Source: an uncultured Bacteroidota bacterium | GTDB lineage: Bacteria; Bacteroidota; Bacteroidia; Bacteroidales; P3 | DNA length: 45,669 bases | Assembly: GCA_902784465.1 (NCBI GenBank) | Contig: CACZUZ010000017.1 | Coordinates: 1-45,669, forward strand | Reading direction: 5' to 3' | Part shown: positions 30,054-33,843 of the stretch, in pieces | How positions within the stretch are numbered: the first letter of the stretch is position 1 | Layout of the letters: every line of letters starts with the position of its first letter | The notes under the pieces: generated by a model | What the model saw: only the letters and a program-made list of their open reading frames with translations | Databases searched by the model: none | Told to the model about the DNA's origin: nothing | Translations under genes and position numbers: made by a program

Positions 30054-30998
30054 ATGGCACAGAAGAAACATGTTGACATAGAGATTGCTGCTAATGATAC
30101 AGAGGTGGTCGCAAAATGCGACCACCTCATACCTATGACACAAATCGAGGAGATGATAATTACTCTTCGTGGTGTACAAGTGATAGTTGACCGTGACTTG
30201 GCGATGCTCTATGGCGTTGAAACAAAAGCGTTGAATCAGGCAGTTAGACGTAATATCAATAGATTTCCTTCTCGTTTCCGTTTCCAATTGACGAAAGAAG
30301 AGGTCAATGAGGTGGTCACAAATTGTGACCACCTACTGAGTATCAAGTACTCACCGACACTTCCTTATGTTTTTACTGAGCAGGGAGTGGCGATGCTTGC
30401 ATCGGTTCTCCATAGCGAAACGGCGGTTGATGTCAGTGTGAAAATAATGGATGCTTTTGTAGCTATGCGTCATTTCATAGCTTCCAATGCACAGGTATTT
30501 CAGCGATTGGAAGTTATTGAACATCATCAGCTTGAAATGTCATCACACTTAACAAAGAATGACAATCAGATTGCTGAAATCTTCAAACGACTCGACCAAG
30601 AAAACACCACTCCCACACAGGGCATCTTCTTCGACGGTCAAATCTTCGACGCATATACCTTTGTTTCCGACCTCATCCGCTCGGCAAAAAAGAGCATCGT
30701 TCTATTTGACAACTACGTTGACGATACCGTGTTGACGATGCTTGACAAGCGTAAGCCCAAGGTGACGGCCACCATCTACACCCAGAAAGTCAAGCAGCAG
30801 CTATCTCTTGACCTTGCAAAACACAACGCCCAGTATCAGCCCATCGATGTAAAACAGTTCGACCGAGTACACGACCGCTATCTTTGCATCGACAACACCG
30901 TGTATCATATTGGTGCCTCGCTGAAAGACCTCGGCAAACGGTGGTTCTCCTTCAATAAGATGGAGATGACAGCAAGGGAACTGCTAAAAAAGCTTTAA
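30054..30998 (+). CDS. ORF6N (KilA-N-like) and PLD-like domain protein
   Basis: A 314-residue protein. Residues about 30-130 are the ORF6N DNA-binding domain (GVQVIVDRDLAMLYGVETKA, NRFPSRFRFQLTKEE, LPYVFTEQGVAMLASVLHSE). A coiled middle (VIEHHQLEMSSHL) leads to a C-terminal PLD-like part (SAKKSIVLFDNYVDDTVLTM ... VHDRYLCIDNTVYHIGASLK) with HxRxxxxD in place of the usual HxKxxxxD. ORF6N domains are common in phage and mobile-element regulators. The peptide EVV(A/T)(K/N)CDHL occurs twice, at residues 17-25 and 86-94, each encoded by a 27-bp palindrome. The gene stands alone at the start of the island with its own promoter. Confidence 0.88.
   Translation: MAQKKHVDIEIAANDTEVVAKCDHLIPMTQIEEMIITLRGVQVIVDRDLAMLYGVETKALNQAVRRNINRFPSRFRFQLTKEEVNEVVTNCDHLLSIKYSPTLPYVFTEQGVAMLASVLHSETAVDVSVKIMDAFVAMRHFIASNAQVFQRLEVIEHHQLEMSSHLTKNDNQIAEIFKRLDQENTTPTQGIFFDGQIFDAYTFVSDLIRSAKKSIVLFDNYVDDTVLTMLDKRKPKVTATIYTQKVKQQLSLDLAKHNAQYQPIDVKQFDRVHDRYLCIDNTVYHIGASLKDLGKRWFSFNKMEMTARELLKKL
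30102..30128. repeat. In-frame 27-bp palindrome, first copy
   Basis: GAGGTGGTCGCA, AAA, then the exact inverse TGCGACCACCTC: a 12-bp perfect stem filling exactly nine codons (17-25) of the ORF6N gene. Confidence 0.95.
30310..30334. repeat. In-frame palindrome, second copy
   Basis: AGGTGGTCACAA, A, TTGTGACCACCT: a perfect 12-bp inverted repeat covering codons 86-94. Compared with the first copy the stem differs by one pair, G-C to A-T changed on both sides. Confidence 0.95.
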
Positions 30999-33327: not shown

Positions 33328-33843
33328 ATGATAAAATACATCGCGGACAAGGAACATTACACAAAAGTGCTGACACTCTGCGAGAATGTCAAGCACGACC
33401 TGTGGATTGGCACTGCCGACCTGAAGGACTTGTATGTAGAAGGCGGACGGGATATGGTGCCATTCCTGTCAGTCCTCGACAAGCTGCTGAAACGTGGTGT
33501 CTATGTGCGGCTGCTTCATGCCAAAGAACCAGGCGAGAACTTCCGCGAGGACTTCGACAAGTATCCAGGCTTGTGGAGCAGATTGGAACGGAGACTCTGC
33601 CCAAGGGTGCATTTCAAGATAATGATTTTCGACTGCGCTACCGCCTACATCGGCTCCGCCAACCTCACAGGTGCCGGTATCGGTATGAAAGGCGACAACA
33701 ACCGCAACTTCGAGGCCGGTATCCTCACCGACGACCCCCAATTGGTCGATGCCGCCGCCGACCATCTCGACAGCGTGTGGCAGGGAAACCACTGTGACAA
33801 ATGCAAGCGGAAGAACTTCTGTGGAGACAGAATCTCTAAATAA
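33328..33843 (+). CDS. Phospholipase D-like nuclease family protein
   Basis: A 171-residue protein with one HKD motif: VHFKIMIFDCATAYIGSANL gives H-x-K-x4-D followed by GSAN, the PLD superfamily active site. With a single motif it would act as a dimer, like Nuc-type nucleases. The N-terminus YIADKEHYTKVLTLCENVKH and the C-terminal CDKCKRKNFC (C-x2-C-x5-C, perhaps metal binding) complete it. A truncated second copy of the N-terminus is found on the other strand at 37994-38098. It follows the hypothetical gene by 29 bp. Base composition is more GC-rich than the two genes before it, so it may have a separate origin. Confidence 0.85.
   Translation: MIKYIADKEHYTKVLTLCENVKHDLWIGTADLKDLYVEGGRDMVPFLSVLDKLLKRGVYVRLLHAKEPGENFREDFDKYPGLWSRLERRLCPRVHFKIMIFDCATAYIGSANLTGAGIGMKGDNNRNFEAGILTDDPQLVDAAADHLDSVWQGNHCDKCKRKNFCGDRISK

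Follow-up and report, generated by a model that had tools for sequence, protein, structure and literature searches.

Why should a gene for a predicted DNA-binding protein carry two palindromes within its own reading frame? The question is raised by an ORF6N gene at positions 30054–30998 (plus strand; an intact frame of 314 codons, encoding 314 aa) of the window, the whole stretch of 45,669 nucleotides analysed here (contig CACZUZ010000017.1 of an uncultured Bacteroidota bacterium). From comparisons of sequence within and beyond this locus, we consider it highly probable that the palindromes are two-fold symmetric sites for the ORF6N protein itself, placed within the code for its own DNA-binding domain, and from this we infer autorepression.

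The window gene and its two palindromes

The window protein matched PF10543 over residues 34–118 (103.7 bits, cut-off 27.8), the anti-repressor profile PHROG 4792 (E 2.9e-27) and the PADLOC PDC-S05 profiles (E 2.7e-119), the antiviral role of the latter being that of a candidate only. By profile, the ORF6N and anti-repressor families (PF10543, PHROG) thus have the same domain as the window protein. In the structure model (mean pLDDT 87.9) this N-terminal domain leads into a long helix, and the C-terminal domain, at about residues 190–314, is PLD-like. Helices 46–53 (30189–30212, plus strand) and 57–66 (TKALNQAVRR; 30222–30251, plus strand) are predicted to form a helix-turn-helix, of which the second is the putative recognition helix according to the model, the mutual information and the code table described below. 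Its residues K58, A59 and Q62 correspond to alignment columns l29, l30 and l33, the predictors of dyad bases. A PDB sequence search for a solved structure of the ORF6N family returned none, only two chance-level rows, and the ORF6N domain fold had no Foldseek match at E <= 0.001, its likenesses (Ski/Dachshund, RacA, Mbp1) all being weak. The best Foldseek match of the window model was TrmBL2, with a low whole-chain TM-score of 0.21. The window protein may share with the archaeal regulators TrmB and TrmBL2 the joining of a DNA-binding head to a C-terminal PLD-like domain. This likeness is one of fold only; the whole-chain match is loose (TM 0.21–0.22) and the head is unmatched. Downstream neighbours in the window are a PD-(D/E)XK nuclease-family protein (PF14281; 31146–32429) and a PLD-like protein (33328–33843) that weakly resembles the restriction enzyme NgoFVII.

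The first-pass annotation had described palindromes coding EVV(A/T)(K/N)CDHL at codons 17–25 and 86–94, and both were found there. Copy 1 (30102–30128; GAGGTGGTCGCAAAATGCGACCACCTC, coding EVVAKCDHL) has arms of 12 paired bases around AAA. Copy 2 (30310–30334) is the intragenic site that the ORF6N family conserves, here in reading frame 1; it has arms of 12 paired bases around a single A and is enclosed by codons 86–94 (30309–30335; GAGGTGGTCACAAATTGTGACCACCTA, coding EVVTNCDHL). The paired G-C to A-T difference at positions 10 and 18 noted earlier stands; that these were the only differences does not, as the nine-codon segments differ at four positions, the other two being 15 (beside the centre) and 27 (the outer end). 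When the peptide of copy 2 was recoded synonymously 300 times, the palindrome score of the actual sequence was never reached. Throughout the host assembly (2.53 Mb, 84% complete) the core pattern occurred at these two places only, and the control had no match. Among same-genus orthologues, copy 2 had the G-C form in G016 (without mismatch) and G119 (with one mismatch), and the A-T form, with one mismatch, in G106. The host assembly also contains a degenerate ORF6N fragment (L002, 1456–1692, minus strand; G000:C16 near 51649–51734) whose dyad has decayed and reads GGTAGCAGAATGCGACC on the coding strand.

The dyad across the ORF6N family and its relation to the protein

ORF6N frames were sampled from the genus and order of the window (the order taken to be Bacteroidales), from named genomes spanning many phyla (the best 80 of 585) and from IMG/VR viral contigs (56 loci), giving 279 distinct ORFs (139 + 140), of which 243 had a usable FTEQG-like anchor. 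With the best 80 of 585 representing the named genomes, a dyad with a score of at least 6.5 was present at one site of the ORF6N domain in 230 of the 243 anchored genes, its carriers belonging to the order of the window, to other phyla and to viral contigs, and 217 of these 230 dyads lay 45 to 57 nt 5' of the FTEQG codons. The other 13 anchored genes, which had no clear dyad (score below 6.5), were excluded from the pair and code tables. The palindrome exceeded every synonymous recoding in 86 of 114 genes (300 recodings each) and in 94 of 129 (200 each). Among the 36 ORFs without the anchor, which were examined separately, 19 exceeded all 200 recodings and several others were fragments without the site. 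As a control, the Rha family (PF09669) yielded four genes over the cut-off; three had palindromes within the null, and the fourth (L335) had an unrelated palindrome that was reached by 1 of 100 recodings.

The dyad is read in two frames. In frame 0 (218 genes) its centre falls on codon position 1 and the peptide is LRSQ[FI][VA]TSS..., while in frame 1 (12 genes, the form of the window gene) the centre falls on codon position 2 and the peptide is EVV[AT][NK]CDHL and its kin. The same DNA core underlies LRSQ[FI][VA]T and EVV[AT][NK]CD, and the peptide is therefore not the thing kept. The first-pass annotation had regarded a kept peptide with a broken palindrome as the mark of a palindrome without function; we observed the opposite, relatives altering the peptide, and even the frame, while keeping the dyad. 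In the model of a common-form ORF6N protein (L070, mean pLDDT 83.2), the dyad-coded residues form the end of helix 61–70 and a loop of lower confidence, in which, on this model, residue changes should be tolerated. The residues corresponding to the base predictors (K38, V39 and Q42) lie on helix 37–46 of the same model. Four genes (L134, L157, L028 and L032) contain a tandem pair of dyads and a longer loop (e.g. LRSQFVTLESKGNSLRSQSATLK).

To relate the dyad to the protein, its bases were compared by mutual information with protein columns outside the dyad-encoded segment in a code table of 217 frame-0 genes, from which near-identical genes had been removed. Position 4 was best predicted by columns l33 (0.89 of its information) and l30 (0.81), position 5 by the same two columns (0.88 and 0.74) and position 7 by l29 (0.77), the next best columns for these three positions giving at most 0.23. 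Position 8 was predicted by the residue after GGxR (0.50), and positions 9–12 mainly by that loop. Columns l30 and l33 stand in the helix after the turn (ETK-l30-L-N-l33-A-V-K-R-N). At position 4, the rule that Gln goes with A, Glu with G and Arg or Lys with C was obeyed in 206 of 216 genes (Gln with A:T in 106/111, Glu with G:C in 48/49, Arg with C:G in 37/41 and Lys with C:G in 15/15). The residue pairs V/Q, R/E and N/K went with CA (81/84), CG (48/49) and TC (13/13), respectively, and Lys at l29 went with G:C at position 7 in 126 of 128 genes. Such combinations fit the side-chain/base preferences that are usually quoted. When Tyr follows GGxR, position 8 was G:C in 106 of 116 genes; with Lys it was G:C in none of 49, and A and T half-sites were mixed. 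In 18 of these 49 Lys-type sites the two half-sites were A.A or T.T, so that the pair was broken while each half-site was still A or T. Half-sites that obey the residue while breaking the pair indicate that the bases are read, and not that a fold is kept.

The same rules held in frame 1, in which other residues are encoded at this place: 10 of the 11 genes that could be parsed (of 13 rows) obeyed them, the exception being L031. By group, the position 4 rule was obeyed in 96 of 99 genes of the same order, 36 of 41 from other Bacteroidota and Chlorobi, 34 of 34 from other phyla (a group assigned by hand, the named genomes being the best 80 of 585) and 40 of 42 from IMG/VR. In a tree built without the helix and loop columns, parsimony gave about 71 changes of helix class, a rough figure for so short a domain. 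Sister pairs differing in helix class differed at position 4 in 27 of 28 cases, and those of the same class agreed in 41 of 43. Another seven genes, from named plasmids and examined once the code had been fixed, all obeyed position 4 (7/7); position 7 fitted both half-sites in five of them, and position 8 fitted in four of the five having a prediction. These seven include a tandem of three ORF6N genes of two classes, with dyads likewise of two classes, that precedes leuS on a Parabacteroides distasonis plasmid (L331), and one of the seven (L330) was read by eye. Insulation between tandem paralogues was not significant: none of nine pairs shared a profile, 4.5% being expected.

These comparisons strongly support the view that the bases of the dyad are set by residues of the predicted recognition helix together with the loop, GGxR[Y/K] in the common form. 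The suggestion in the first-pass annotation of an operator bound by the ORF6N protein is borne out to this extent, as helix residues predict dyad bases across phyla and in both frames. Because the helix that would read the DNA usually matches the site in its own gene, the ORF6N gene probably carries its own control switch.

The window gene itself appears to show a change of specificity under this code. Its helix reads K-A-L-N-Q and position 4 of copy 2 is A:T, as the code predicts for a Gln-type helix; the helix of G016 and G119 reads K-R-L-N-E, and copy 2 has G:C there. Compared with G119, the window gene is identical at 133 of 135 bases in codons 11–55 and at 134 of 135 in codons 101–145, but at only 32 of 45 in codons 56–70, which hold the helix, and 82 of 90 in codons 71–100. 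The local tract that departs from G119 and G016 (30219–30353, plus strand; codons 56–100) thus holds both the putative recognition helix and copy 2, and may be a short recombined tract. At gene positions 166–300 the window gene has 11 informative bases in common only with G106 and 7 in common only with G119 and G016, so the tract is no clean copy of either. Copy 1, which lies outside the tract, still has the Glu-type base, G:C at position 4, though the present window protein is of the Gln type. Since the differences cluster at the helix and copy 2 and copy 1 is unchanged, the compensatory pair is best read as a specificity switch, with lock and key in one tract.

Sites upstream of ORF6N genes and elsewhere in genomes

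In the surroundings of 229 genes, dyads paired at 10 or more of 11 positions peaked 200–350 nt upstream of the internal one (32 sites), the other 50-nt bins containing 0–3 each. Dyads with at least 8 of 11 pairs occurred upstream in 54 of 224 genes, about a quarter, versus 9/218, 4/220, 2/229, 1/228 and 5/221 genes in five control windows; one rule was applied throughout the position histogram and the control windows. The motif TAnnTTTG, which we take to be the Bacteroidota -7 box, was enriched beside 43 upstream dyads (15 occurrences vs 2.2 in shuffles, maximum 9), and in 8 of the 43 it started 18–26 bp after the dyad centre, a spacing that would place the dyad's central TTG close to the -33 box. 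These upstream dyads, some of them beside a promoter-like box, lend further support to the proposed operator.

Upstream and internal copies within one gene resemble each other. The upstream sites, most of which are outside the reading frame, matched the bases predicted from their own protein at 182 of 274 half-site positions (36 genes; permuted mean 0.522, p = 0.0002). Position 5 taken by itself did not reach significance, and agreement at position 4 was poorer than for the internal site (Gln with A:T in 13/19, Glu with G:C in 5/8, Arg mixed). The upstream sites were picked by pairing, and the upstream pair table is therefore biased to pairing. Two genes whose upstream site lies in an ORF6N remnant (L078 and L228) were removed for the TAnnTTTG, code and own-protein tests and retained in the position histogram, the upstream pair table and the control-window counts. 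Distances between upstream and internal dyads, inspected by eye only, showed no pattern of helical phasing, and the 600 nt upstream of the window gene had no dyad of the ORF6N type among those listed. Upstream of the ORF6N genes of L254 and L217, two or three successive dyads were seen by eye, as in operator arrays.

Few strict sites lay away from ORF6N genes. A strict search for one form of the site in 393 genomes of the window's order, with the reversed pattern as control, gave 53 sites in 40 genomes and no control match. Forty sites lay inside an ORF6N frame, 9 just upstream of one and 4 elsewhere. The first 32 sites examined were inside (25) or 22–180 nt upstream (7), and suggested that strict sites occur only at ORF6N genes; this reading was ruled out by four exceptions among the other 21. 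Of those, 20 comprised 14 inside, 2 upstream and 4 without an ORF6N frame within the 3 kb examined, and the remaining site (G363) was counted as inside because it lies within the PF10543 profile match. A looser search, with a shorter-armed pattern and one mismatch allowed, covered 190 genomes of the family and found 10 sites. Eight were at ORF6N genes and 2 inside another gene, at one orthologous place in G112 and G117; the control gave 4 matches.

All four outlying strict sites are intergenic. One lies about 100 nt before a DUF6364 and PIN-domain pair (L359, near 1469), one has a second dyad alongside and precedes an AAA_21 protein of the putative AbiEii toxin family (L361, near 1489), one lies between VapE-like and DUF6577 genes (L354, near 1471) and the fourth is terminator-like. 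We guess that DUF6364 and DUF6577 are toxin-antitoxin- or defence-like, and the dyads may be outlying targets of ORF6N proteins. With 4 of 53 strict sites having no ORF6N gene within the 3 kb examined, autoregulation is not the whole story for all sites.

It is conceivable, though unlikely in our judgement, that the ORF6N protein binds the dyad for another or wider role, in the control of other genes or in the recombination, segregation or replication of an element. Three of the four outlying sites lie near families that are toxin-antitoxin- or defence-like (DUF6364 with PIN, DUF6577 and AAA_21, the first two by guess), and ORF6N genes adjoin integrases and a Tn3 transposase and are found on chromosomes, plasmids and viral contigs. 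There are also precedents for a binding site inside the gene of the binder: such a site is already known for the lambda O protein, whose cognate repeats, the iterons of ori, lie inside gene O (PMC4488673), and for repABC plasmids, whose oriV lies inside repC, with action in cis reported (PMC3155836). The likeness to ORF6N is that of a DNA-binding protein with its site in its own coding sequence. The differences are that lambda ori is the replication origin of a single phage, with four iterons and an AT-rich region, and that repC encodes a plasmid initiator acting on an AT-rich origin, for which the accessible text describes no dyad recognition code. The ORF6N family, in contrast, has one dyad, a predicted regulator, many phyla, two frames and a residue-base code. 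Against a wider role stand the association of 49 of the 53 strict sites with ORF6N genes, the clustering of second sites 200–350 bp upstream of the internal one, some by promoter-like boxes, and the diversity of neighbours in named genomes. A survey of named-genome loci (104 of 153 ORFs; 25 of 164 families) also spoke against a defence or restriction operon: no family, N6_Mtase and integrase included, had more than 4 members among the 25 of 164 families listed, and there is thus no fixed operon.

Autorepression by the ORF6N protein is likely. An ORF6N dimer would bind the dyad and repress its own gene. At the internal site the bound dimer would block elongation, and in the quarter or so of genes with an upstream dyad it would block the promoter or form a loop. 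With its operator inside the coding sequence, the gene would stay self-controlled whatever promoter it came to lie behind, and recombination of the tract would pass on the operator together with the helix that reads it. It is an evenly balanced question whether ORF6N genes are, in addition, self-contained control cassettes in which LRSQ[FI][VA]TSSWGG is conserved mainly as an operator. If so, the codons of this block would be fixed by DNA symmetry, the in-frame operator would give promoter-independent autorepression wherever the gene lands, and lock and key would co-recombine, switching specificity in one step as proposed for the window gene. Auxiliary operators inside coding sequence are known from lac O2 and gal OI. 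Those sit in a structural gene, whereas the ORF6N dyad sits in the sequence for the DNA-binding domain of the candidate repressor itself. No description of an operator or intragenic site of ORF6N proteins was found in a literature search by title and start of abstract.

That a widespread Pfam family has a conserved peptide motif shaped by a DNA site is a caution against equating conservation with protein function. Every ORF6N gene yields a protein-site pair, which makes the family a ready-made resource for deriving a protein-DNA recognition code, and a domain of bacteria, plasmids, viral contigs and the candidate antiviral gene PDC-S05 gains a testable function. If true, the code predicts the ORF6N operator from the helix, and also outlying targets, some of them by toxin-antitoxin-like genes.

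Constraint on the DNA and alternative explanations

Among 212 distinct frame-0 sites, pairing was 93–100% at positions 2–5 and 9–12, and lower elsewhere (89% at 6, 82% at 7 and 8, 74% at 1), and at variable positions it was far above independence. Position 4 was paired in 205 of 212 sites (A:T 102, C:G 52, G:C 49). The codon-level test for paired changes that had been proposed earlier was run on 210 genes located through the peptide motif and not through the palindrome, and in it codon choice followed the dyad and pairs covaried. Ser...Val was coded TCA/GTG in 103 of 105 genes; the corresponding counts were 44 of 47 for Ser...Ala (TCG/GCG), 14 of 15 for Cys...Gly (TGC/GGC) and 14 of 18 for Phe...Gly (TTC/GGA). 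In 202 of 210 genes, base 3 of the first codon was complementary to base 2 of the fourth; after permutation of codons within amino acids the mean was 122 and the maximum 142.

Arms that vary while their pairing is kept, as at position 4, are also what a DNA cruciform or single-stranded DNA hairpin, selected irrespective of its sequence, would leave. We nevertheless consider this very unlikely, as the bases follow the helix residues, the Lys-type position 8 is unpaired in 18 of 49 sites and the upstream sites follow their own protein. Selection for an RNA hairpin in the mRNA is less credible still. It would account for the stem-like symmetry, and in L012 and L026 the upstream dyad lies after a promoter-like box and before the start codon. 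Against it, non-pairs at positions 1–15 in frame 0 were of the G.U type in 58 cases versus 108 of the A.C type (51 vs 76 without position 7, where A.C is commonest), and in frame 1 in 2 versus 7. With G.U-type non-pairs fewer than A.C-type, the RNA stem is not under selection. These sequence patterns thus strongly support a constraint exerted on the DNA duplex, as opposed to the peptide or an RNA hairpin.

Template switching at replication is known to correct imperfect palindromes, and could have perfected an old palindrome without any function, which would agree with the likeness of upstream and internal copies within genes. It leaves the match between helix and bases, and the 27 of 28 switching sister pairs, unexplained, and we regard it as highly improbable as the sole explanation, although template switching may be a helper of specificity switches. 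Least probable of all is a mobile palindromic element inserting in frame, like the Rickettsia palindromic elements: a short palindrome occurs twice in the window gene and tandem copies occur in L134, L157, L032 and L028, but the Rickettsia elements are dispersed in unrelated genes, whereas the host genome here has just the two copies, 49 of the 53 strict sites belong to ORF6N genes and the remaining 4 are intergenic, the looser search found 2 of 10 sites within another gene while its control gave 4, and the position within the domain is fixed. Of the interpretations offered in the first-pass annotation, the operator is therefore retained, and the kept fold, of DNA or RNA, and the mobile element are set aside.

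Two loci carry palindromes of other kinds. In L125, a palindrome with 26-base arms and the same core (CATCACAATTTGTGATG), far longer than the others, lies 45 nt 3' of the gene and is perhaps an operator and terminator combined. In L099, the ORF6N gene is flanked on both sides by a perfect palindrome, TGTAGAGACGCGATTAATCGCGTCTCTACA, at 152 nt upstream and 734 nt downstream of its start; this is a different repeat, with related forms in L092 and L085.
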